A stretch of DNA of 64,000 nt from Candidatus Altimarinota bacterium (GTDB lineage Bacteria; Patescibacteriota; Gracilibacteria; UBA1369; UM-FILTER-53-11): contig JAGOUV010000006.1 of assembly GCA_018061065.1 (NCBI GenBank), positions 1 to 64,000 of the forward strand, read 5' to 3'. This document shows positions 3 through 35,660 of the stretch, one piece after another (positions within the stretch are counted from its first letter, which is position 1; the number at the start of each line of letters is the position of its first letter). Made by a program: the position numbers and the translations under genes. The notes under the pieces are model-generated. The model searched no databases, was not told where the DNA came from, and worked only from the letters and a program-made list of their open reading frames with translations.

Positions 3-302
3 GGTAACTTCTTATTGGATATTGCGGGTCGTTTAACGGGAAAAGCGGATTTTAAAACGGGCGACGAGGCGATTGATAAAAAATACTTTATCAATGCAGA
101 AAATGGGGATGAGGTTATTCCCTTTCTCCATCAGCTCCAGGTGCAAGATGCCCTTGATGAGCTCATGAAATCCGGTCGCGTGGTGGTGAATGAGCTGGGT
201 GTGTGTGCCCAGAAAGAAGGTAATTTCTATCGGGCGACGGCTGAAACAATGCGTGATGAGCTCGTCCGCGTGACGGATGCGGTTCGTAAAATAGGCCGAT
301 AA
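3..302 (+). CDS. C-terminal part of an unknown protein (5' end outside window)
   Basis: An open frame runs from the window edge to a TAA at 300-302, so only the last ~99 codons are visible. The visible part is soluble, without membrane segments. It carries the phrase KTGDEAIDKKYFI followed by a mixed helix/strand region ending in basic residues. A 'tGDe.fDk.f' phrase of this kind also occurs in some DUF3137-like membrane-associated proteins, but that is only a loose resemblance. The nitrilase-family gene follows 33 bp downstream behind its own -10 element, so co-transcription is not required. Function not recognised. Confidence 0.6.
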   Translation, partial: GNFLLDIAGRLTGKADFKTGDEAIDKKYFINAENGDEVIPFLHQLQVQDALDELMKSGRVVVNELGVCAQKEGNFYRATAETMRDELVRVTDAVRKIGR

Positions 303-20501: not shown

Positions 20502-20564
20502 TAGCGTTGAGGAAATGCTGATTTTCTGGTAGAATGAGTGGATTTAATAAACACAAAAATCGGA

Positions 20565-21071
20565 ATGGAAAAACACAAAAAACAAATTGTTCATCGTCAC
20601 ATGTTTGAAGACGCGACCATGAGTTGGGTTGCACCCGAGTATGCACACCATGAAAAATCACTCACGTGGTTCGTAGGTGCTGCATTAATTATTTTGGGTT
20701 TGGTGATCTACGGACTGATGACTAACGGCTGGACATTTTCTATCGCCGTCTTGGTTTTTGCAGGAACATATTATTTGATTTATCGCACACCGCCTCAGCA
20801 TGTCGAAGTAAAAATTTCTCGTGCTGGAGTGAAGATTGGCAGACATATTTTTTCTTATGCGGAGCTACGTGGTTTTTGGATCGTGTATAATCCACCGTTT
20901 GTTTCTCGCTTGTATATACGCATGCAGACGCGGTTGCGTCCCGATGTATGTATTGATCTTGTGGATATGGATGTATCCGAGGTGAAGCGTGAATTGCTTG
21001 AGCACATGCATGAAATTAAGGGCGTTGATGAGCCCTTTGCTGATACCGTAATTCGTTTATTGAGACTGTAA
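20565..21071 (+). CDS. Two-helix membrane protein with PH-like C-terminal region
   Basis: A 168-aa protein with a short N-terminal region, two transmembrane helices (about 36-54 and 59-75) and a soluble C-terminal domain. The C-terminal phrases 'VEVKISRAGVKIGRHIFSYAELRGFWIVYNPP' resemble bacterial PH-like (bPH) domains. It is the first gene of a tightly packed four-gene cluster (next gene 4 bp away). A TAGAAT at 20530-20535 precedes it with a leader of about 23 nt. The ATG at 20565 was chosen because an upstream GTG at 20538 would lie before the predicted transcript start. Function unknown. Confidence 0.65.
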   Translation: MEKHKKQIVHRHMFEDATMSWVAPEYAHHEKSLTWFVGAALIILGLVIYGLMTNGWTFSIAVLVFAGTYYLIYRTPPQHVEVKISRAGVKIGRHIFSYAELRGFWIVYNPPFVSRLYIRMQTRLRPDVCIDLVDMDVSEVKRELLEHMHEIKGVDEPFADTVIRLLRL

Positions 21072-21075
21072 TTTT

Positions 21076-22836
21076 ATGGCTCCAGAAGTAAAACCAACAC
21101 CGGAAAAAAGACAGGATCCTCGAGAGGTAATCGATGGTGCGCTCGCTGCTGAAAAACAGCAGACCGAAAAAGAACGACTCAAGAGCCTGATGCGGATGCC
21201 TGATGTGAACGCGAAACTTTTTGGCGACCCGGATAAAGATAATGAAACAGATCATGAGACGCAGGCGGCGCATGATCGTTATATGAATGATCCAAAATAT
21301 AAAGAGCTTCATAGAAGCGTCATGGTTTCTGTGCGCAATCTTGCAGAACGTCAAAAAAGAGAAGTGAAGTACAAGGATGAGACGCAGGAGCAAATTTATG
21401 ACAAGACAATGCTGGCACTTAATAGACTACAGACACAGCTTGTGACCGAAGGTCGCTCAATGAAGCTTCGAGAAACAAAACGTGCACGCACTGATCAAGG
21501 TAGTGTGGACGGGAAGATTGCAAAGGAAAAGATTAATCCTGATTTAGAGGTGATGGATTACGAGGAATTGCTTACCTTTAAAAATCGTATTGAACAGTTG
21601 GAGCGCGTAGATGCCAATGAAGTACGCAGCATGCTTGAAGAAGATGCAGATTTTACGCTCATGCTCTTTGAGCAGATGAGTCGTGATCGCGTGGTGACAC
21701 AAGTGGGAACATTAAAGGATACTTCCGTTGAGGGCATGCAGAAGATGCAGAAGGACGCTCAGCGCATGTTGAGCTTGGAAAATCCGAATGCAGTTGCACA
21801 TTATAAACGTCTTATTGGATTTATTTCTGGAGATGACGAGCAGAATAACGTCTCAAAATCTGACTTCCGCCATAACGCGGAGCGTCCGTTGTGGATCGAA
21901 ATCGTCCGTAATATGAAACAGGATGAGAAGAAGTTTTTAGTTGAGCGATTTGCAGTGGAAAAAACACCCGCTGCGGCAAAAGAATTCATTCAGGGCTCGA
22001 TAGCTGCAGGTACAATTCGTGTTCGCGATGTTATGAAGTGGACTATGGAAGCTCAGCAGAATCCCGAAAGTTCCTTTTTCCAGACATTGGATAAACCTTT
22101 TTTGGATTCGCTCGATACGCTAGCAGACATGCGTCGTGCTACTAAGGAAGATCTTCAGAAGCATGTTGAAGATATGAGCAAGACAAATCTCGACAGTGCT
22201 GTTGGGCATTACCTTACCTTTAACAACTTCCTTTATAGCCGTTTAATGGATATTGGTGCGCTCTCGATGTTAGTGAGTTTGATTACCAATGTTTCAGACC
22301 GTCTTAATCGTCGTACTGAACACACGCGTAATGAAGGAAGAATTAAGGCCTTTGTTATGGGTATTAAGGATGGAGTGATTAATCGCTCAAGTATTTTTGG
22401 TATGACTTCTGCCGCTATTGGTATGAATGGTATCTCCCCATTTTTTACTAAAATGATGTATGCCCCAAGTGTAAAAGAAAAAGAGCTTGTAGCGAGAAAT
22501 CATGACCTTGTGGAGCTTGATGATATGTTTTCAGACCGTCCCCAGCTTGCCCGTTTTATGTTGAATAATTTTGATGACATGCATCAGCGTGCCACACAAA
22601 ACAAAGAAGGGACGTTCCCTAATAATGAAAATGAAAAACGCGGTGATTTTTCTCTGTGGCCAAAGGATGTTATGGAATATGCCACGATTGATAATACGTT
22701 GAAGTGTGGTTACAAGGATCATGTGCGTTTTGGTTCTGATGTATTTCACTCATTCCGCATTCTTTCTAAGGTTGTTGATATTCATGACAAAGAAAAATTG
22801 GAAAAATATTTAACCGACAACGGCTATCTCCTATAA
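21076..22836 (+). CDS. Large helical protein of unknown function (cluster gene 2)
   Basis: A 586-aa protein without a signal peptide. The sequence is highly charged and mostly helical up to about residue 380. A short more hydrophobic stretch follows (about 385-410, LYSRLMDIGALSMLVSLITNVS) that could touch the membrane, then a region with 'FGMTSAAIGMNGISPFFTKMMYAP' and a soluble C-terminus. No recognisable enzymatic motif. It starts 4 bp after the PH-like membrane protein and ends 2 bp before the TrbL/VirB6-like gene, so translation is probably coupled. Confidence 0.6.
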   Translation: MAPEVKPTPEKRQDPREVIDGALAAEKQQTEKERLKSLMRMPDVNAKLFGDPDKDNETDHETQAAHDRYMNDPKYKELHRSVMVSVRNLAERQKREVKYKDETQEQIYDKTMLALNRLQTQLVTEGRSMKLRETKRARTDQGSVDGKIAKEKINPDLEVMDYEELLTFKNRIEQLERVDANEVRSMLEEDADFTLMLFEQMSRDRVVTQVGTLKDTSVEGMQKMQKDAQRMLSLENPNAVAHYKRLIGFISGDDEQNNVSKSDFRHNAERPLWIEIVRNMKQDEKKFLVERFAVEKTPAAAKEFIQGSIAAGTIRVRDVMKWTMEAQQNPESSFFQTLDKPFLDSLDTLADMRRATKEDLQKHVEDMSKTNLDSAVGHYLTFNNFLYSRLMDIGALSMLVSLITNVSDRLNRRTEHTRNEGRIKAFVMGIKDGVINRSSIFGMTSAAIGMNGISPFFTKMMYAPSVKEKELVARNHDLVELDDMFSDRPQLARFMLNNFDDMHQRATQNKEGTFPNNENEKRGDFSLWPKDVMEYATIDNTLKCGYKDHVRFGSDVFHSFRILSKVVDIHDKEKLEKYLTDNGYLL

Positions 22837-22838
22837 AA

Positions 22839-25127
22839 ATGACTACCAAAAAACAAAAATGGGTTAAGAAGTTTGCGGCGATTGTGCTGTCTGTGTGGCT
22901 CATGGGCGTGGTCTATGCTTTTGCAAATGTCACGCCGGTGTCTGCTCAAGGCGCGCCCGCTGCAGCTCCTGCCGCCGCTCCTGCAGCTGCACCCGCAGAT
23001 CCACAGAACGCCGGAGCCGTAGGCGCTCCAGATAATGATCCCACTGATCCTGAGCTCGTGAAGTTACTCAATCAAGTAAACGCGATTGCCAATATCGGTC
23101 TGCGTTTAATTTCTGGATTGCTCTGGCCGGTGCTTCTTATGATCGGAGCGCTTCTCAATAATGATCTTATTTTTGGTGGTGCTATGGGTGAGCGATTACT
23201 CGATGTCTCAATTCAGATTCGCAATTTGGTAAATATAATGTTCGTATTAATCTTGCTCGCCATCGCCGTGTATAACGTGCTTGGTCTAGGGCAGGAAGGT
23301 GGCTTGCAGCTTGGATTTAAGCAGGCGCTTCCGAAATTTGTTCTCGCATTGATTGGGGTAAATTTTTCATTTATCGCCATTAAAATTATTTTGGATTTTA
23401 GTAATGTTATTACTGGTGCGGTGTTTGCACTGCCGTCTGCATCACTTAGTAGCACGACGAGTTTTCAGAATGAACTCGAAAAATCTATATGTATGGTGAA
23501 TAGTGATGAGGCACCGTTACATCTGCAGTTCTGCGATGATCAACATTTTAATGCGCGTGCTAAACAATTTTTCTCACGCTTAGATCGCAACAATATTGCC
23601 GTCGTCTACGCAATTAAATTCGGTAAGGCCATTAATCTCAAATACATTCGTGATGGCGTAAAGGATATTACCTCGCTCGGCTTTAATATTCTCTTTAATC
23701 TCGTGCTGTTTGCAGTCTATGCACTTTCATTTATCGCGCTGTTTCTGGTCTTGCTCTTCCGCCTTGTGGTGGTGTGGGTGGCCGTGGCGCTTTCGCCGCT
23801 TATAGCCTTGGGAATCGTGCTGCCGGGTCTGTCTAAATTTGCCGGAGACGGTGGAGATATTCAGGACAAAGTCGTTCAAAATATCATCGCGCCAATTACG
23901 ATCGGTATCGTCATGTCTATTGGATATATCATGCTCGATACGTTCTCAGTAAATACCAGTTTGGCAGGTGATTTGCTTTCATCTAATACGCTGGATGCGA
24001 TTGATCCAAGTGCCGTTCCTACTGACATTACGAATCTTCAGGAATTGCTCATTGCAATTGGTACGGTGGTCATTGTTTGGACCGGTGTATTTGGTGCCGC
24101 GAGCAAAACCTACGCTTCAACGATTACTGATGGTATTAAAGGAGGTGCCGAATCATTTGGAAAATTCCTCGCAAAACTTCCTACCTACGCCCCTGTTATC
24201 CCTATGAGTGTGGGTGGAGTGGATAAGAGTTTAAGTGCTGCAAGTATCTTTAATACCCTTAAACAGACTCCAGGTAGGGTTGAAAGTACCTTTGGACGAT
24301 CGGTTTATGAAATGCCGCCTAACCCGGAAGTCGACCGTGCATTGAAAGATTCTGCCCGTGTAAGTGCGCAGGCATTTGGAAAGGAAATTGTGAACACGTT
24401 GAAGAATTCACCTACATATATTGCATCAGCAGGATTTTTCGACTCACTGCGTACGTTTGCAACTGAGAAAGCAGGTATGAAGCCTGATGAAATTGAAAAG
24501 CAATTCGGTAAAGAGCCGACTGACTATAAACGTGTACTGGAAGGTATCAATAGAAGCACTGATCCCCAGATATCAGCTTTGAAACGTGAAATTGAAACCA
24601 ACTCAGGAAAGAAGATTGATGATATTAAATTGGCTGTTGAACGAGGCCAAAAAGAAGAAAAAGCTAAAGCGGAAGGAAAAGAGCCTCCTAAGCCGGAGGC
24701 CGCTCCTGTGGCAAGTAACTCAACACAAGCATTGAATATTTTGACTAAGAGTGCACCTGATGCGGCTCGACAGCGTGCATTCCAGGCAGGTGGATTTACT
24801 GAGGCAGAACTTACTGCTCTTCAGAAACAACTTGTCGCACTTACGGGTCCTACTGCCGACAAGCTTAAGCAGTCACTCATCGTCTTGGAGGACGGCAAGG
24901 TGAAACACGTTACAGCTGATAAAGTAGAGAAAGGAAACACCTTTCTCCAGGCAATCGATGATAAAACCGATGCTGCCGCAATTCGTACGGCGGTGGACGC
25001 TGCGCTCAAAACAGATCTCGAAACATGGCAGATTACCAATATTCTTAAAGCTGCCACGATCAATGATGGCGCTCTAAAGACTGATCTTGAAAAAGTAGTG
25101 ACGAGCACGCCCCGACCACAAAAATAA
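22839..25127 (+). CDS. Polytopic membrane protein, TrbL/VirB6-like
   Basis: A 762-aa protein. Order: signal peptide (about 12-36, ending VSAQG), Ala/Pro repeat ([14 protein letters not shown]...), then at least six hydrophobic segments between residues ~75 and ~420, including GLLWPVLLMIGALL, 'NIMFVLILLAIAVYNVLGLG', 'FVLALIGVNFSFIAIKIIL', 'LVLFAVYALSFIALFLVLLF' and 'VVVWVAVALSPLIALGIVLPG'. The last ~340 residues are soluble and charged. This is the layout of TrbL/VirB6 proteins, the inner-membrane channel component of type IV secretion systems; the assignment is by topology. No VirB4, VirB8-11 or VirD4 genes are adjacent. Confidence 0.65.
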   Translation: MTTKKQKWVKKFAAIVLSVWLMGVVYAFANVTPVSAQGAPAAAPAAAPAAAPADPQNAGAVGAPDNDPTDPELVKLLNQVNAIANIGLRLISGLLWPVLLMIGALLNNDLIFGGAMGERLLDVSIQIRNLVNIMFVLILLAIAVYNVLGLGQEGGLQLGFKQALPKFVLALIGVNFSFIAIKIILDFSNVITGAVFALPSASLSSTTSFQNELEKSICMVNSDEAPLHLQFCDDQHFNARAKQFFSRLDRNNIAVVYAIKFGKAINLKYIRDGVKDITSLGFNILFNLVLFAVYALSFIALFLVLLFRLVVVWVAVALSPLIALGIVLPGLSKFAGDGGDIQDKVVQNIIAPITIGIVMSIGYIMLDTFSVNTSLAGDLLSSNTLDAIDPSAVPTDITNLQELLIAIGTVVIVWTGVFGAASKTYASTITDGIKGGAESFGKFLAKLPTYAPVIPMSVGGVDKSLSAASIFNTLKQTPGRVESTFGRSVYEMPPNPEVDRALKDSARVSAQAFGKEIVNTLKNSPTYIASAGFFDSLRTFATEKAGMKPDEIEKQFGKEPTDYKRVLEGINRSTDPQISALKREIETNSGKKIDDIKLAVERGQKEEKAKAEGKEPPKPEAAPVASNSTQALNILTKSAPDAARQRAFQAGGFTEAELTALQKQLVALTGPTADKLKQSLIVLEDGKVKHVTADKVEKGNTFLQAIDDKTDAAAIRTAVDAALKTDLETWQITNILKAATINDGALKTDLEKVVTSTPRPQK

Positions 25128-25149
25128 AAAGCTAGAAAAATAAAAAAAT

Positions 25150-28100
25150 ATGTTCCGCGAAAATAAAAATACACATCGATTCATCTATAGGACTACCTCA
25201 CCGAGAGGAGGCGCCTCCGAAGGCGCAGTGCCACCAGATGAGCAAGATGAGGAGCAGAAGCTGCGCATGAATCAGCTCATGGAGGAAGATCGTCGTCGCA
25301 GTTTACAGACGAAGATCGGTACTTCACGCGCAAGCACGGCTACTAAGTTGCGCATGCGCGACTATCTTTCTGCGGAGGATGCCTCCAAGCAGAATTTAGT
25401 TGAGCGTTTTTTGAATGATGAAAATGTAAATGAAGCAACGCTTTTGAAAGAAATGAACGAGATCGAGTCGTTGGAGGATTCGTGGAAAGTGATTGGCTCG
25501 ATTCAGCGTGATGTGCGTGGAAAAATTCATGAGTTGCAGTGGCGTGTAGAAGGATATGCGGATCGTTTACCGCATCAGCGTGCACGTTTTGAGGCTGCGT
25601 TAAAAGATATTAAAGCATTGAATCGCAACGATGATATTTTTGATCGCGGCTTAAAGAATGAGCTGCTTGCACTTATGAAGCCAGCGCAAAATGGCGATAA
25701 GACTGCTGTTTTAAATTCAGCTGCGGTGAAGGCAATTTACATGCTCGATCCGACCTCAAAAGATTTTGAGAAACAGATGAAAGTGTATCAGCCATTGATA
25801 GAGAAACGCACCGGAGGAGATGCAATTTTTAAACGCATTATCGAACGCAAGCGTGAGGAAATTATTATTGAAAGGAATTTTAAGAAATTGACGGATACCG
25901 CCAATAACATGATCAGCGATAACTTGAGTAGAGTGCGTCGTGCCGCTGATAAAAAAGAAATTCTCAAAAATGCTTCCAGTGCCGTGGGAGTGAGTATTGA
26001 AGAGGGAACTGAGCTTGAGTATGAGCGCCCGGATCCTACGTCAATCATATCAGTGAAGAGCAAGCACCACGTCACGATTAAAAATATTACGATCGAGGAA
26101 ATTCCTAAATATGATAATCACGGGAATCGCATTGGGTATGTGCTCGGTGCACCGAAAATTATTTTAGATGATGGTAGCTCATATACGTTGGGTCGTTTTA
26201 AGAAATGGGTGGACGCAGTGGATGCAGTTGAGGCGGTTCACGGTATGAAGGAGGTGCAGAAAAAGATTGGATACGGCGTTTACGGAAGTGAGTTAGAGGC
26301 GGGCACGATGCTTTCATACATGTTGCACACGCGCACTAAGGAAGGAAAAATTTTGGGAACACCGACATTCGTGACGGTCACTGAAATTAAAAATGGAGTT
26401 ATTTATTTTAATATGCCGGTTCAGTTTGCACCGGGTATGGAGGGTGTCGATGAATTTGAGATGCGTGAGTCACTTACCTATGGAGAGTTTGTAAAATGGT
26501 GGCATCGTTATGAAGTTGAAAAGGCGATGAGTCAGCAAGAGCTGCGCGAGGCGCTTTTCCGCTATAACCAAGTTCAGAATAAAGAATACGGAACTAATAC
26601 AGATAGCAATCCACCGATTGACCTGGAGGCGGGTGAAGAGCTGCGGTATCCCGATGATAGTGGTGCTAGTTTTATTATAGAAAAAGTAGACAACAACGGC
26701 GTGAAATTAAATAACGGCCGCTACATGTCGTTCCCTGAATTTTTTAATTGGATTAAGGTAAATCAAGTTGAAAAATTGCCGATAAAGGTGCGTTCACGTG
26801 CAGAGCGTGAAGAAGAGGAGAATGTACGTAAAGGAATCAAGGATAAACTTGAACATGAGTTTACTAAGGTTGAGTTAAAAGAAGATGCTGCCGCAAAGCG
26901 TTGGGAAGGCGTGTATAAAGAACGCGATGAAGTACAGGCTCAGACACCAATGAAAATGCTTGCTCGCATGTGGCATACCACGACGTTTTTGTCGCTCGCG
27001 GATCTTTGGAATGTGGGTAAGGAAATTTATGAATTTGTGAAGCGCCGCCACGAGCGCCGTTCAAAGGGTCGTTATGCAGAGGCGCTCAGTAAGATGCCGG
27101 GCTTGCTCGGTGTGGAAGGTGAGCGTGTGAAGGAATCCGCAGAACACGAAGAAGTAAATAAATATAAGGAAGCCATGGAGCACTGGGGTATTCCTAAAAT
27201 TAAAAAAACCATGTACGAGACGTCCGATAAAGATGTCTCAAAAGCCTGTATGCTCACGCTCATTCATAAAGGTGAAATGCGTTGGGATGATCATTTTATG
27301 TGGAATACACTCAACCGTTTGACCTCACGCTACACGCTTAAAGGTACGATGTTGTATATCCCGTCGCCGGAAAAAATGCCACCGGGAGAAAGTGGTGAAG
27401 ATTTTTGTAGAAAATCTATTGATGCGCTTTGGGGTGAGGGTACTGCTGCCGAGTGGTATATGGATAACACAGGTAAGTACAACAGCCACAAAAAAGAATT
27501 TGAGTGGAAGTTTAAACAGTTGGAAAACGATCCAAAAGGTACGGGTGGTCCTTCTGCTGAGTTGCGCAAGATGTTGCAGGACTGGCTCAAGGGTGAATAC
27601 GTGAGTCCTCATGAATATGAGGCGATTTTGGATGGTGCACTTAAATACGGAAAAATGTACACGGAAGACAAAGTGTTCTTCATTTTTATGGGAGTAATGG
27701 CGCGTGAAGGTAATGGACACGGCCATAATCCTCACGGTGAAACACTACTACATATCGATCGTCTTGGTGAATTGAACTCGTTGTATCTTAACCAGTTCCC
27801 TTTGCTTGATTTTTATACTCAGGAAGTTGTGTATGACCCCATCATCAAGAAACATCGAAAATTGAATTTGAACGATTTTATGGAAATGATGGAAGAGTAT
27901 TTCCCTAATGATTTCCGTAATTGTAAGGCGTCAGAAGAGTTTAATAGATTTTTATGGGAGAAAATGCTTATGAGTGATTCGGTTCGTGTGCGTATTAGTA
28001 AGGGCTTACGCAACGCAGAAAACATGGATCACGATGACGCGCATCTCTATATCCCTCCCGCAAGTGCAACTGAAATTGATCAGTTAACGCTGCCCGCTAC

Positions 28101-28752
28101 AGGTAACAAGAAATATTTCTCTACACCTGGTTTTATGAATGCCTATCCAGGTTTTGCCCATTATATTAAGAGTCTTACGTATTCAATTGATGAAGAAGAT
28201 GACGACGAAAAGCGTGGAAACAAGATTTCATCGCTTGCTGAAGGTATAAACTCTTTTATTCGTTTCGATTTGATCATGGATAGTCGTTATGACAAAAAGA
28301 GCCCGGCACGCGCACGTTTGGATGAACATCACTATAGAAGTCCTCCAGTGGTGGATGATGTAACCGTGGGTTTCCATCAGGGGCAGATGCGTAATTTAGT
28401 AATGGAAATTGCTAAGGAATACGGTCGTGCACAAGATTTTGATTTCTTATATAAAGATAAAACAAAGTCGATTTTGGATAAGGATGAGGAGCGCAAACAA
28501 AATGAATATGAAGGTAAAGTTCAGAATCTTCCTCAATTAGTACAGGCCATGATCGCTGAAGATAAAGGTGCAAAAGCAATGCAAGTTATCAAACGTGCTA
28601 TCTCACGCGGTATGGACGCGGCAAATGGACTACGTGGTATTCCTCGTGCGGATCGTCCTGGTCGAGATAAACTTATTGAATTGCGCAACCACGCACGAGA
28701 GGCTTTGGTCGAACGCCAGCATGCAGAAGAGCATGGAGATGCCCATCACTAG
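25150..28752 (+). CDS. 1200-aa soluble protein with three internal repeats (cluster gene 4)
   Basis: One of the largest proteins of the window and not recognised. No signal peptide or membrane helix; strongly charged and largely helical. Between about residues 283 and 545 a unit occurs three times. Each starts with an acidic E-[EA]-G-x-x-L-x-Y box (EEGTELEY, EAGTMLSY, EAGEELRY) followed by a beta-rich stretch. Each ends with an aromatic box: YTLGRFKKWVDAVDAVE, LTYGEFVKWWHRYEVEK, MSFPEFFNWIKVNQVEK. The C-terminal half is rich in His/Asp/Trp but shows no familiar catalytic motif. It follows the TrbL/VirB6-like gene by 22 bp and closes the cluster. Confidence 0.65.
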   Translation: MFRENKNTHRFIYRTTSPRGGASEGAVPPDEQDEEQKLRMNQLMEEDRRRSLQTKIGTSRASTATKLRMRDYLSAEDASKQNLVERFLNDENVNEATLLKEMNEIESLEDSWKVIGSIQRDVRGKIHELQWRVEGYADRLPHQRARFEAALKDIKALNRNDDIFDRGLKNELLALMKPAQNGDKTAVLNSAAVKAIYMLDPTSKDFEKQMKVYQPLIEKRTGGDAIFKRIIERKREEIIIERNFKKLTDTANNMISDNLSRVRRAADKKEILKNASSAVGVSIEEGTELEYERPDPTSIISVKSKHHVTIKNITIEEIPKYDNHGNRIGYVLGAPKIILDDGSSYTLGRFKKWVDAVDAVEAVHGMKEVQKKIGYGVYGSELEAGTMLSYMLHTRTKEGKILGTPTFVTVTEIKNGVIYFNMPVQFAPGMEGVDEFEMRESLTYGEFVKWWHRYEVEKAMSQQELREALFRYNQVQNKEYGTNTDSNPPIDLEAGEELRYPDDSGASFIIEKVDNNGVKLNNGRYMSFPEFFNWIKVNQVEKLPIKVRSRAEREEEENVRKGIKDKLEHEFTKVELKEDAAAKRWEGVYKERDEVQAQTPMKMLARMWHTTTFLSLADLWNVGKEIYEFVKRRHERRSKGRYAEALSKMPGLLGVEGERVKESAEHEEVNKYKEAMEHWGIPKIKKTMYETSDKDVSKACMLTLIHKGEMRWDDHFMWNTLNRLTSRYTLKGTMLYIPSPEKMPPGESGEDFCRKSIDALWGEGTAAEWYMDNTGKYNSHKKEFEWKFKQLENDPKGTGGPSAELRKMLQDWLKGEYVSPHEYEAILDGALKYGKMYTEDKVFFIFMGVMAREGNGHGHNPHGETLLHIDRLGELNSLYLNQFPLLDFYTQEVVYDPIIKKHRKLNLNDFMEMMEEYFPNDFRNCKASEEFNRFLWEKMLMSDSVRVRISKGLRNAENMDHDDAHLYIPPASATEIDQLTLPATGNKKYFSTPGFMNAYPGFAHYIKSLTYSIDEEDDDEKRGNKISSLAEGINSFIRFDLIMDSRYDKKSPARARLDEHHYRSPPVVDDVTVGFHQGQMRNLVMEIAKEYGRAQDFDFLYKDKTKSILDKDEERKQNEYEGKVQNLPQLVQAMIAEDKGAKAMQVIKRAISRGMDAANGLRGIPRADRPGRDKLIELRNHAREALVERQHAEEHGDAHH

Positions 28753-28814: not shown

Positions 28815-30278
<1,464 letters not shown>

Positions 30279-30294
30279 TAGTAGTCATCCCCAT

Positions 30295-30750
30295 ATGTCC
30301 CACATTAAATTCAAAATAGTAACTCCTGAGCGCATTGTGTTTGAAGACACGGTAGACGCTGTTGTGTTACCCACGACTCAAGGTGAAATCACGGTGCTTC
30401 CGCATCATATTCCCCTCGTATCACTGTTGCAGGCAGGTATTGTGCGCATTAAGAAAGGGGATGAGGAAATTCCTCTCGCGGTTTCAAGTGGTGTTATCGA
30501 GGTAAATAAGAAGGAAATTGTGGTATTGGCGGATTCTGCAGATAGAGCGGATGAGTTGGAAGAAGAAAAAATCCAGCGCGCACGCGACGATGCAAAGAAG
30601 TTAATGGAAGAAAAACGAAACGATGTTGAGGGCTTTGCAGAGGCAACCGCCATCCTGGAGCGTGAGTTGGCCCGCTTGAAATTAGTACAACAGTACAGAA
30701 GACATGCATCTCGCAGCACTCCTGGCCCACGACCTGATGATCAGCAATAA
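30295..30750 (+). CDS. atpC: ATP synthase F1 subunit epsilon
   Basis: A 151-aa subunit: N-terminal beta-sandwich (FKIVTPERIVFEDTVDAVVLPTTQGEITVLPHH) and C-terminal helical arm (about 90-140) that can inhibit ATP hydrolysis. The last ~12 residues are a Ser/Pro-rich tail. ATG 30295 follows atpD by 16 bp; a TTG at 30271 would overlap atpD. The gene overlaps the next small membrane-protein gene. Confidence 0.93.
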   Translation: MSHIKFKIVTPERIVFEDTVDAVVLPTTQGEITVLPHHIPLVSLLQAGIVRIKKGDEEIPLAVSSGVIEVNKKEIVVLADSADRADELEEEKIQRARDDAKKLMEEKRNDVEGFAEATAILERELARLKLVQQYRRHASRSTPGPRPDDQQ

Positions 30751-30958
30751 AAAGTCGAACACTGCATCGCTCATGTCGCTTGCCATGGATCTGGGCTTCA
30801 CCATCGCCATCCCGATTGTACTGTTTGGACTCGGCGGCGCACTCCTGGATCGCAAGCTTGGCACTTCTCCTCTGTTTCTCCTCATCGGTGTCGTTCTCTC
30901 TATTGTCATCACATCGATTGGTATCTACCGAAAAATTAAATCGTACAAACTCTTTTAA
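30737..30958 (+). CDS. Small F1Fo accessory membrane protein (AtpI/AtpQ-like)
   Basis: A 73-aa protein with two transmembrane helices (MDLGFTIAIPIVLFGLGGALLD and LFLLIGVVLSIVITSIGIY) and the short 'DRKLGTSP' turn typical of the ATPase_gene1/AtpI-like family that helps c-ring assembly. It overlaps atpC by 14 nt (47 nt if ATG 30704 is used). Its place right after atpD-atpC matches AtpQ of N-type ATPase operons; the companion AtpR was not found. Confidence 0.75.
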   Translation: MISNKKSNTASLMSLAMDLGFTIAIPIVLFGLGGALLDRKLGTSPLFLLIGVVLSIVITSIGIYRKIKSYKLF

Positions 30959-30963
30959 CTCTT

Positions 30964-31845
30964 ATGGCATTCGCAGCTCCTACACTCGGTTCTGAAACAC
31001 TCATGGAAATTGCTGGATTTCCTATCCGCAATAGCATGGTGATGGCATGGATCGCGATGATTCTACTGATCATCGTAGCTATCGTGTATAAGCGTAAAAG
31101 CGGCAATTTGGTTCCTCGTGGATTACAGAATTTTATGGAGATGCTCATTGAGGGCCTCTTCAATTTTTTCAATTCAATTACACAGGACGCAAAGTTAACA
31201 CGTCGTTTCTTCCCTGTTGTAGCAACTATTTTCTTCTTTGTTATCGCCTCAAACTGGCTCGGTATTTTCCCGGGCGTGGGTTCAATCGGTATTAAAGAGG
31301 GTGGCGAAGAAGCTGTACATGAAGAAATTGTTAAAGAAGAACCCGTCGCACCTACCGCAATTGTTCCTGTAGACGCAGAAGTAGGACATCCACCAGCCGG
31401 TGAATCAGCTGAAGCCGCTGTTGCCGAGGAATCCGAGGGCGGCCACGAGGTTATTCATATCTTCCGCACAGGTTACGCTGATGTGAACATGACACTTGCA
31501 CTCGCGCTTATCTCTGTTTTCATGACGCAGTATTTTGGTATCAAAGCTCTTGGATTCTTTGGATATGCAGGTAAGTTTTTTGTTAATCCTTTCCGTGATC
31601 CTATCGGATTCTTCGTCGGTATACTGGAATTTATTTCTGAGTTCGCAAAATTGATATCATTCTCTTTCCGTCTTTTTGGAAACATATTTGCCGGAGAGGT
31701 GCTTCTCGTTGTTATCGGCTTTTTGGCGCCGTTTATTGCTCCTTTGCCTTTCTATGGACTGGAGATCTTCGTGGGATTTGTGCAGGCATTAGTGTTTGCA
31801 TTGCTCACGCTGGTCTTCATGAAAAATGCTTCCACGGCACATTAG
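30964..31845 (+). CDS. atpB: ATP synthase Fo subunit a
   Basis: A 293-aa polytopic subunit that forms the proton half-channels. The essential Arg is in SFSFRLFGNIFAGEVLL (about residue 238). An acidic, Ala/Pro-rich insertion (about residues 114-165, rich in Glu) sits in a loop before the 'MTLALALISVFMTQYFG' helix and is longer than in typical a subunits. Follows the AtpI/Q-like gene by 5 bp. Confidence 0.95.
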   Translation: MAFAAPTLGSETLMEIAGFPIRNSMVMAWIAMILLIIVAIVYKRKSGNLVPRGLQNFMEMLIEGLFNFFNSITQDAKLTRRFFPVVATIFFFVIASNWLGIFPGVGSIGIKEGGEEAVHEEIVKEEPVAPTAIVPVDAEVGHPPAGESAEAAVAEESEGGHEVIHIFRTGYADVNMTLALALISVFMTQYFGIKALGFFGYAGKFFVNPFRDPIGFFVGILEFISEFAKLISFSFRLFGNIFAGEVLLVVIGFLAPFIAPLPFYGLEIFVGFVQALVFALLTLVFMKNASTAH

Positions 31846-31896
31846 GAGTAGAAAAGTACGCTATGCCGCATTGATTTCTCGTTCATTGCTCTATAA

Positions 31897-32175
<279 letters not shown>

Positions 32176-32304
32176 AGCTTACTTAATAAGCTCAACCTCG
32201 TTCAGTTGCCCTTATTACGGGCTCCTTCACTTGGTTTCGCGCTCGCGCCGTGCGCTCGCATTGCAGCGATTTTGAAACGAATTGTGTAACCGCCCCTCTA
32301 TCTT
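32176..32304 (+). promoter_or_regulatory. Structured intercistronic spacer after atpE
   Basis: Directly after the atpE stop a hairpin forms (AGCTTA at 32176-32181 with TAAGCT at 32187-32192), followed by a smaller GCCC/GGGC hairpin and a G+C-rich stretch with the repeated octamer GCGCTCGC. No T-run, so not a typical terminator. Position suggests a role in raising c-subunit expression relative to its neighbours through mRNA stability or processing; this is inference. Confidence 0.4.
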
Positions 32305-32805
32305 ATGGAATTACTCTCTAAATTAGCCATCGACTGGAAGTTGTTGATCGCACAGATCGTCAACTTCACTATCTTGGCCATCATTCTCTTCAAACTCGTG
32401 TATCGTCCTCTCTTAGCTACCTTGGACAAACGTACCAAGATCATTGAAAAGGGAATGCATGATGCAAAAGCAGCTGAAGAAAAACTCGCCTCTGTTGAAA
32501 AAATGGAGCACGAGCGCATGATGGAAACTAAGAAAGAAATCGGACGTCTTATAGAGGAAGCTAAGTCTGATGCTGAGACTATGAAAAAAGATATTTTGGC
32601 TGCAGCAGCAACTCAGTCAGAAGAACTTTTGGACCGTGCACGTACGCAGATCCAGGATGAAAAGACCGCTATGCTCGCAGAAGTAAAAGGTGAGTTGGTG
32701 GGTCTCATTATCCAGACGAGCGCAAAAGTCATGGGCAGAGAATTCTCCGCAGAAGACCAGAAACGCCTCGTAGGTGCTATCAGCAATGAAATGAAGTCTG
32801 TATGA
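32305..32805 (+). CDS. atpF: ATP synthase Fo subunit b
   Basis: A 166-aa stator protein: N-terminal transmembrane helix (about 7-28, WKLLIAQIVNFTILAIILFKLVY) and a long charged helix that dimerises and reaches to F1. Overlaps atpH by 4 nt (ATGA). Confidence 0.94.
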   Translation: MELLSKLAIDWKLLIAQIVNFTILAIILFKLVYRPLLATLDKRTKIIEKGMHDAKAAEEKLASVEKMEHERMMETKKEIGRLIEEAKSDAETMKKDILAAAATQSEELLDRARTQIQDEKTAMLAEVKGELVGLIIQTSAKVMGREFSAEDQKRLVGAISNEMKSV

Positions 32806-33203
32806 AAATTACCCCTCGCAAATACGCACAAGCCCTCGCGCTTATGGTAGCTGAAAACGGTCTTGAGAAAGACAAGAATTTGATTCAAAATTTTCTCAAG
32901 ATGTTACAGCGCCGCAAGCAGATGAAGCTCCTACCCAAGATCATGAAAATGTTCGAGGCGGAGTGGTATAAGTCGCAGGGCGTCGTACAGATGCAGGTTC
33001 AGTATCCAGAAAAATTTCCCGACTCAGTAAAAGAGTTTGAGAAGCAGATGAATGCACAGTTTGATAACAAAGTAAGCATTGCTGCCACTCCTTCCTCTGC
33101 AATTTCAGGAGGACTCAAAGTTAAAATAGACGACACTCTTATAGACGGAACAATTGAAGCTAAACTTCAGAAGCTCACACACAACTTAATCCACAGCAAG
33201 TAA
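32802..33203 (+). CDS. atpH: ATP synthase F1 subunit delta (short)
   Basis: A 133-aa stator subunit linking b to the top of F1. Start '[19 protein letters not shown]' and C-terminal '[25 protein letters not shown]' are the family hallmarks. It is about 45 residues shorter than E. coli delta (177 aa), missing part of the helical N-terminal bundle. N-type ATPases lack delta altogether, so its presence matters for classifying this operon. Confidence 0.9.
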
Positions 33204-33222
33204 GTATCTAATCCCAATCCCT

Positions 33223-34722
33223 ATGACGCACCCTAAAGATCACATTCTCCAGACTATCCAACAGGAAGTCGAAAAATTTCAATCCGGTATCTCTGCTGAG
33301 AAAGTGGGAACGGTGGTAGAAGTCGGTGATGGTATCGCTCGTATCTCAGGATTGAGTGATGTTAAAGCTGCTGAAATGGTGGATTTTGGAAACAATGTAT
33401 ACGGAGTAGCATTGAACCTTGAGCAGGACACTGTTGGTGCGATGTTGATGAGCAACACGACAACTATCCGCGAAGGCGATACAGTAAAAGGAACAGGCCG
33501 TATCTTGTCAGTGCCGGTTGGTGATCAGTTGATCGGCCGCGTGGTAAATCCACTCGGTGAAGCTATTGATGGCAAAGCTCCTATTAAAACGGACAAATTC
33601 TATCCGGTTGAAAAAATTGCTCCTGGTGTTATCACCCGTCAGTCGGTGAATCGCCCGCTGCAGACCGGTATTAAGGCAATCGACGGTATGATTCCGATTG
33701 GCCGTGGTCAACGTGAGTTGATCATTGGTGATCGTCAAACCGGTAAGACTGCCATTGCAATCGACACGATCCTCAACCAGCAAGGACAAAACATTATCTG
33801 TATCTATGTAGCGATTGGTCAGAAAGAATCTAAAATTGCAAAGATCGTAGCAGAGTTAGAGAAGCGCGGTGCGATGAAGTACACCACGGTTGTTTTGGGA
33901 AGTGCTTCAGATCCAGCATCATTGAACTTCTTGGCTCCGTACGCAGGTTGCGCAATTGGTGAATATTTCTTGGATCAAGGAAAAGACGTACTCGTGATTT
34001 ACGATGATTTGAGTAAGCACGCATGGGCATACCGTGAAATTTCATTGCTCTTACGCCGCCCACCAGGTCGTGAAGCATATCCTGGTGACGTTTTCTATCT
34101 CCACTCTCGTTTGCTTGAGCGCGCATGTTCACTTAATAAAGAAAATGGTGGTGGTTCACTTACTGCATTACCTATTATCGAGACGCAAGCTGGTGACGTA
34201 TCTGCATATGTTCCTACGAACGTTATCTCGATTACTGACGGTCAGATTTACCTTGAACCAGATCTTTTCTATAAAGGTATTCGCCCTGCGGTAAACGTAG
34301 GTCTCTCGGTATCTCGTGTGGGTTCTGCTGCTCAGACTAAGGCTATGAAAAAAGTGGCTGGCCGTCTTCGTTTGGACTTGGCTCAGTTCCGTGAATTGGC
34401 TGCATTTGCACAGTTCGGTTCTGACTTGGATGCAGGTACTAAGAAACAATTGGATCGTGGTCGCGCATTGACTGAGCTCTTGAAGCAAGGTCAGTACACC
34501 CCGCTCGTTATGGAAAAACAGGTTGTCTCATTGTATGCCGGTATTAACGGATACTTGGATGACGTGCCAGTTGAGAAAATTGGTGAATTTGAAAAGAAAT
34601 TCTTGGATTACCTTGAGCATGTTGAGCGCAGCATTCTCAAAGAAATTGGTGAGAAGAAGGAGATGAGCCCTGAGACAGAAGAGAAATTGAAGAAGGCAAT
34701 CGCCACATTTAAGACTATGTAA
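33223..34722 (+). CDS. atpA: ATP synthase F1 subunit alpha
   Basis: A 499-aa non-catalytic nucleotide-binding subunit. Motifs: [16 protein letters not shown], Walker [14 protein letters not shown], '[42 protein letters not shown]' region and [15 protein letters not shown]. Length is normal. Confidence 0.97.
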
Positions 34723-34724
34723 TT

Positions 34725-35660
34725 ATGGCAAAGGGTACACGCGAAATTCGTCAGAAGATTAAGTCGACCAAAAACACACGCCAGATTACTAAGGCGATGG
34801 AACTGGTCTCCGCATCTAAGATGCGCCGTGCAGTGGCTAACACCCTTGCGCTGCGTCCTTATGCGCGTATGGCTCAAGCGCTCTTACAGAATTTGGCCGA
34901 GAAAACAGCAAATACTGAAGAGGGAGCAAAGGCTATGCACGCATTACTTGATGTTCGCGCAGTAACAAAAGTTTTAGTGGTAGTGGTCTCTACGGATAGT
35001 GGATTATGTGGCGTATTGAACGCACAGCTCTTCCGTCGTTTAAATGAATATCTGAAAAACGAAGAGAAGTTGGATCATAAGCCGGAGTTGTCTTTCGTGG
35101 CAATCGGACGCAAGGCGCAGGATTTCCTCCGTCGTTCAGGAAAAAATGTCGTAGCTGCTTACAGCGCTATGAGTAATAAACCTAAGTTGAAAGATACGTT
35201 CCCGCTCAGTCGCATGATTTTGCAGGATTATACTTCAGGCAGTTACGATAAAGTCGTTTTGGTTTATACCGATTATATTTCCGCACTTTCTCAGAAGCCG
35301 ATGGTACGCAGATTGTTGCCGTTTTCACGTGCTGCTCTGGATGAAATGATTAGTGAAATTGATAGCCAAAAAGCTATGGAAAAAGATGAGGCGACGATCC
35401 AGGAAGAGTATCTATTTGAACCTTCACCTGAAACTATTTTCGCCACATTGTTGCCACGATTAACAGAAATGCAGGTGTATCAAGCAGTGCTTGAGGCTGC
35501 AGCATCTGAGCACGCTTCACGTATGGTGGCTATGCGCAATGCTTCTGATAATGCATCACAGCTCATCTCTGACTTTACCCTTACCTACAACAAGATTCGT
35601 CAGGCAAGTATTACGGCGGAGTTGGCTGAAATTTCAGCAGGTCGCGCAGCGTTGGAATGA
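34725..35660 (+). CDS. atpG: ATP synthase F1 subunit gamma
   Basis: A 311-aa central rotor shaft. The N-terminal helix start GTREIRQKIKSTKNTRQITKAMELVSASKM and the C-terminal RMVAMRNASDNA plus TLTYNKIRQASITAELAEI are diagnostic. Starts 2 bp after atpA and ends the operon; the mltG -10 element overlaps its stop. Confidence 0.96.
   Translation: MAKGTREIRQKIKSTKNTRQITKAMELVSASKMRRAVANTLALRPYARMAQALLQNLAEKTANTEEGAKAMHALLDVRAVTKVLVVVVSTDSGLCGVLNAQLFRRLNEYLKNEEKLDHKPELSFVAIGRKAQDFLRRSGKNVVAAYSAMSNKPKLKDTFPLSRMILQDYTSGSYDKVVLVYTDYISALSQKPMVRRLLPFSRAALDEMISEIDSQKAMEKDEATIQEEYLFEPSPETIFATLLPRLTEMQVYQAVLEAAASEHASRMVAMRNASDNASQLISDFTLTYNKIRQASITAELAEISAGRAALE

Follow-up and report, generated by a model that had tools for sequence, protein, structure and literature searches.

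A block of four closely packed genes, P1 to P4, in the genome of a Candidatus Altimarinota bacterium of the class Gracilibacteria (phylum Patescibacteriota; assembly GCA_018061065.1, contig JAGOUV010000006.1) encodes a protein, P3, whose sequence firmly places it as a VirB6-type protein of the Patescibacteria type IV secretion system (T4SS), a machine common to these ultra-small, host-dependent bacteria. This assignment is made because the membrane core of P3 is homologous to proteins linked to PrgI, TrsD and VirB4, some of which pass the TrbL/VirB6 cut-off. According to a 2025 survey, the PrgI and TrsD genes of Gracilibacteria are not close to virB4, and no VirB6 homologues occur there, 'suggesting extreme sequence divergence' (PMC12102498); P3 is the expected divergent VirB6 and fills this gap. 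The block as a whole is probably the detached module of this T4SS subunit in Gracilibacteria. The analysed stretch (the window) is 64 kb of a genome of 1.30 Mb in 28 contigs. An initial annotation, made from the sequence of the window, had described four same-strand genes with gaps of 4, 2 and 22 bp, and the coordinates of the open reading frames, which span 20565-28752 on the forward strand, confirm this arrangement:

20565-21071, forward strand: P1, 168 aa (start ATG at 20565, with an in-frame GTG at 20538)
21076-22836, forward strand: P2, 586 aa
22839-25127, forward strand: P3, 762 aa
25150-28752, forward strand: P4, 1200 aa

A single-sequence search recovered P3 homologues in 56/59 relatives, and relatives keep P1, P3 and P4 in an unchanged order and orientation, so that P1–P4 are real genes. 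When genome contigs were scanned with the single P3 protein no match was obtained, and an alignment was needed; within the class the P3 profile matched 134/145 genomes and across the whole phylum 206/287 (about 72%), with P3 the sole protein of its type in this genome. Near its N-terminus P3 carries a hydrophobic signal (residues 9-34), which is followed by about seven membrane segments within residues 86-422 and a variable C-terminal tail of 340 residues, so that it is polytopic in the manner of VirB6 proteins, which have at least 4-6 hydrophobic helices. Homologues outside the class are 600-1360 aa long. In 10 of the 18 such genomes examined their gene shares its strand with VirB4 and is no more than 10 kb from it, the others mostly presenting short contigs or the two genes on different contigs. 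The order P3-(x)-PrgI-TrsD-VirB4 was seen in seven loci from other classes (L067, L070, L072, L073, L074, L076 and L078), in which the proteins encoded between P3 and PrgI are not homologous to P1–P4.

Profile-profile alignment (hhalign) of 41 class P3 sequences against 14 homologues from outside the class gave a probability of 99.8% and an E-value of 7.8e-30; the 277 aligned columns span P3 residues 90-438. Two of these outside homologues pass the TrbL/VirB6 cut-off (31.0 and 30.1 bits versus 25.9) and four more match below it; one of the two that pass is encoded 5 kb from VirB4, and its P3 and TrbL matches overlap. None of the residues N132, N175, R308 and P320 varies among the 26 sequences aligned across the phylum. 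These data bear out the earlier suggestion of a TrbL/VirB6-like protein of 762 aa. Several other Patescibacteria have a tandem pair of P3/VirB6-type genes (L069 5598-10797, L073 8740-14290 and L074 6044-11125). In part of the class (G068, G071, G104, G133, G175 and others), P3 homologues read through an in-frame TGA. Such read-through is expected for recoded lineages, as TGA encodes glycine in some Gracilibacteria and Absconditabacteria.

Compared with the VirB6/TrbL family (PF04610), P3 shares the polytopic core through its profile-profile homology to the TrbL-positive, VirB4-linked Patescibacteria proteins and, like the extended VirB6 proteins, is large with an extra hydrophilic C-terminal tail (PMC12857230). 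In solved systems VirB6 forms a pentamer (PMC12857230). P3 differs from the family in being too divergent for Pfam and NCBIfam, in the position of its gene, which is distant from virB4 and flanked by genes of unknown families, and in a class-specific loop with a conserved cysteine pair:

23490-23534, forward strand: codons of the P3 loop cysteines C218 and C232, kept in 40/41 and 41/41 class members, respectively, and absent from the homologues of other classes

The two cysteines may form a disulfide. Counts of positive charges in the loops were not decisive for the topology of P3; the order of the membrane segments would place the cysteine loop inside, whereas the conserved cysteine pair would point to the oxidising outside.

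Other components of a T4SS were found elsewhere in the genome. VirB4 (685 aa) is encoded on contig C18 and P3 on C20. PrgI/VirB3, with an adjoining TrsD-type protein, is also on C18, about 50 kb from VirB4; the name TrsD rests on a sequence resembling the VirB4 N-terminus together with its place beside PrgI in all clusters of other classes. The genome holds 14 matches to T4SS pilins (VirB2-like) at E<2e-5, most of which are grouped into arrays on contigs C18 and C5. Pilin-domain arrays were noted at G000:C18:102703-105102 and C5:30971-33521 (L168, L169), one of them within a 1665-aa protein that starts with a signal peptide. Matches to PF10412 above the cut-off, on C21 and C28, are putative VirD4-like ATPases; such ATPases are frequent, and the assignment is weak. 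A VirB4-type P-loop family was present in 29/32 genomes checked. With VirB4, VirB3/PrgI, TrsD and VirB2-like pilins, this genome has the set of components by which the MPF-FATA-related T4SS of Patescibacteria is recognised (PMC12102498). As in that system, P3 homologues of other classes lie within the T4SS cluster; it differs here in that the parts are spread over several contigs and P4 occurs only in the class. The absence of T4SS ATPases beside the block, described in the initial annotation, is correct locally: no VirB4, PrgI or TrsD was found in the named loci of relatives (up to +/-10 kb). For the rest of the genome, in which VirB4 and VirD4 homologues had been suggested as a search target, VirB4 was located on C18, and the matches on C21 and C28 are VirD4-like by a weak assignment.

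The conservation of the block was assessed in 46 named loci from relatives, almost all of them Ca. Peregrinibacteria, Peribacteria or Gracilibacteria assemblies, with P1 testable in 33 and P4 in 41. P1 was 5' of P3 in 33/33 testable loci, with one (7 loci) or two (26 loci) same-strand genes between them, and P4 was directly 3' of P3 in 39/41. The synteny is therefore conserved and, in keeping with the initial annotation, P1–P4 fall into no unrelated known families: searches of Pfam, NCBIfam and PDB sequences with the four proteins gave nothing above cut-off, and the two large partners described as unrecognised, P2 and P4, reach the cut-off of neither a Pfam nor an NCBIfam family. Family f19, a sister lineage, has a large protein, P4-type or other, encoded directly after P1. 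P1 and P4 thus appear to be coupled more tightly to each other than to P3, because the pair stays adjacent in that family while P3 lies elsewhere. An extra gene of 250-550 aa lies between P2 and P3 in 26/33 relatives and is absent from the family of this genome; its product is of low complexity and, by inspection, tail-anchored, its very C-terminal end being hydrophobic (e.g. L048 8260-9225 and L051 7760-9235). A relationship between P2 and this product was considered and rejected (hhalign probability 0.6%).

P1 was analysed by hydrophobicity, AlphaFold2 and Foldseek, which gave the following features:

P1 residues 33-52 and 56-73, forward strand: transmembrane helices (hydrophobicity and AlphaFold2 model)
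20799-20999, forward strand: P1 PH-like domain, residues 79-145 (AlphaFold2 pLDDT 88.6; Foldseek)

The model of the soluble domain has six strands of at least 3 residues followed by a C-terminal helix, as expected of the PH-like fold (a seven-stranded barrel with a capping helix), and Foldseek matched it to FERM F3, FACT PH and PTB folds with a probability of about 1.0, a best E-value of 6e-3 and 10-17% identity. As these E-values are weak, the resemblance is one of fold only: P1 shares the strand order and C-terminal helix of the PH superfold, and differs in carrying the domain on a two-helix bacterial membrane anchor. The earlier description of P1 as a PH-like two-helix membrane protein holds, and P1 is, as modelled, a PH-like membrane protein conserved across the phylum (profile matches in 228/287 genomes). 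Outside the class, P1 and P3 are no more than 20 kb apart in 22/67 genomes versus about 4 expected from independent placement in a 0.9-Mb genome, an excess that shared conserved neighbourhoods could inflate. In most sampled Patescibacteria outside the class, P1 was near recG, often together with comF (L131-L139, L147 and L149).

P2 evolves fast (about 20% mean column identity) and is mostly soluble, with one weak family-averaged hydrophobic stretch at residues 384-408; a positional homologue was present in 21 named relatives. P4 is confined to the class, as its profile matched all 12/12 genomes from the order itself, 9/14 from the other orders and 0/261 outside the class (21/287 in the phylum). 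The AlphaFold2 model of P4 (pLDDT 80.6, pTM 0.49) shows three parts:

P4 residues 32-279, forward strand: helical N-terminal part (AlphaFold2 secondary structure)
26011-26763, forward strand: three beta modules of P4, residues 288-356, 387-453 and 497-538, each closing with a short helix (AlphaFold2)
P4 residues 600-1195, forward strand: helical C-terminal part (AlphaFold2 secondary structure)

The beta modules end alike (FKKW, FVKW and FFNW). Comparison of P4 with PDB and viral structures gave no match at E<=1e-3, and weak fold matches to helical-repeat proteins and tape measures were set aside as generic. No signal and no membrane segment were detected in the sequence, in line with the earlier view of a soluble 1200-aa protein; P4 is probably cytoplasmic, as both are lacking. 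Within the first 70 residues, the motif [RK][FLM][ILVF][FY] was seen in 14/27 P4 proteins versus 12/289 other proteins of at least 300 aa from the fetched loci, and in P4 it is typically followed by a G/P-rich linker (25150-25240 in the window; L086, L087, L090, L094 and L109). This N-terminal motif is a possible docking motif.

The surroundings of the block were named by sequence inspection. On the 5' side lie rpsF, ssb, rpsR and a proB-like kinase gene, and on the 3' side an ATP synthase operon. The latter appears to read beta-epsilon-I-a-c-b-delta-alpha-gamma (28845-35660), with beta and epsilon first, an order that resembles N-ATPase operons and differs from them by the presence of the delta subunit. 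This 3' neighbour is found in 2-4/46 named loci only, while a threonyl-tRNA synthetase-like gene is present in 25. A putative promoter precedes the block:

20507-20535, forward strand: candidate sigma-70-type promoter, TTGAGG-17-TAGAAT with TG preceding the -10 element (a weak candidate, by position only)

Promoter-like sites in this region were no more frequent than in shuffled sequences.

Several observations weigh against reading P3 as VirB6 and the block as its module. P3 is near VirB4 in 0/12 genomes of the class in which both could be placed, including this one, the two being on different contigs or >60 kb apart; such linkage is typical of VirB6/TrbL and does not define it. P3 has no direct Pfam or NCBIfam TrbL match (PF04610), which is a test of sensitivity and not of structure, and no sequence match to solved VirB6; PF04610 has no match anywhere in the genome at E<=1. 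In family f19, P3 is apart from the P1–P4 pair, either on a different contig or at a distance of about 18-24 kb. P1 occurs throughout the phylum, and its gene frequently adjoins recG/comF in other classes instead of being part of a T4SS block. Finally, rpsF, ssb and rpsR are also kept 5' of the block (31, 23 and 32 of 46 named loci, respectively), so that the block is part of a wider conserved neighbourhood and synteny alone is no proof of a shared complex. The main rival explanation, which we regard as distinctly less probable, is that P3 is the VirB6 of a scattered T4SS, while P1, P2 and P4 are no T4SS parts and form a membrane-linked module of their own that has only the rpsF-ssb-rpsR super-operon in common with it. 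The breadth of P1, its neighbours elsewhere (recG, comF, dprA and LytR-type genes), the arrangement in family f19 and the retained ribosomal protein and ssb genes would all fit such a separation. By contrast, the order P1-(P2)-P3-P4 is kept at the high frequencies given above although the 3' neighbour varies, and outside the class P1 is close to P3 more often than independent placement predicts. The membrane core of P3 could also belong to a polytopic protein of another kind, with a TrbL/VirB6 likeness that is compositional, as the missing direct TrbL match might suggest; the profile-profile E-value with VirB4-linked proteins, the polar invariants N132, N175, R308 and P320 and the recurrent gene linkage make this the least credible of the alternatives.

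The initial annotation had proposed a reduced secretion or uptake apparatus, which can be read as a machine of the four genes alone, independent of VirB4 and VirD4. That no relative from the order has a T4SS ATPase gene within 10 kb agrees with it, but the genome has genes for VirB4, PrgI, TrsD, pilins and VirD4-like proteins at other places, the VirB4-type family is nearly ubiquitous among the genomes checked and P3 homologues of other classes sit within an ordinary VirB4-containing T4SS cluster, so that this proposal is largely refuted and very improbable. Its companion claim, that the four genes specify one complex, fared better in that the block is conserved in relatives, and is weakened by the separation of P3 from P1 and P4 in family f19. 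A further possibility is that the whole T4SS, including this module, serves DNA uptake as a ComB-like competence channel, with P1 as the link to recombination genes. P1 adjoins recG, comF, radA and dprA in many classes, and the T4SS of the class ABY1 is beside comF, recG and radA (PMC12102498). None of recG, comF, radA and dprA is in the present block, however, and in a Saccharibacterium comEC was dispensable for epibiotic growth whereas T4SS genes were essential (PMC12102498). We therefore consider an uptake role improbable.

For P3 as a VirB6-type subunit, established T4SS biology suggests that it would oligomerise in the cytoplasmic membrane and, together with PrgI/VirB3, TrsD and VirB4, would form the translocation channel and a platform for the pilus, on which VirB2-like pilins would assemble towards the host cell. 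Judging by gene order, P1 may anchor P4 (and P2) at the membrane on the cytoplasmic side of P3, and P1, P2 and P4 may act as an accessory module at its cytoplasmic mouth, perhaps in substrate receiving or gating. We infer on the same grounds that P1–P4 form a joint complex. More tentatively, P1, P2 and P4, with the tail-anchored protein of relatives, could be an undescribed class-specific cytoplasmic T4SS sub-complex for receiving or gating substrates, docked on an unusually divergent VirB6 in a machine whose genes are dispersed over the chromosome.

What is new here is a strongly diverged form of a component that is itself known, from a known, little-studied system, together with an undescribed class-specific partner, P4. 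For P4 the libraries searched contain no relative by sequence or by fold, and its position is one in which a substrate receptor might be looked for. Among secretion machines, only the T4SS has been shown to be essential when a cultured Patescibacterium grows as an epibiont (as cited in PMC12102498). The P3 profile yields VirB6 candidates in the same large share of sampled phylum genomes in which it finds a match, and P3 itself completes the Gracilibacteria T4SS as a set of parts for modelling.

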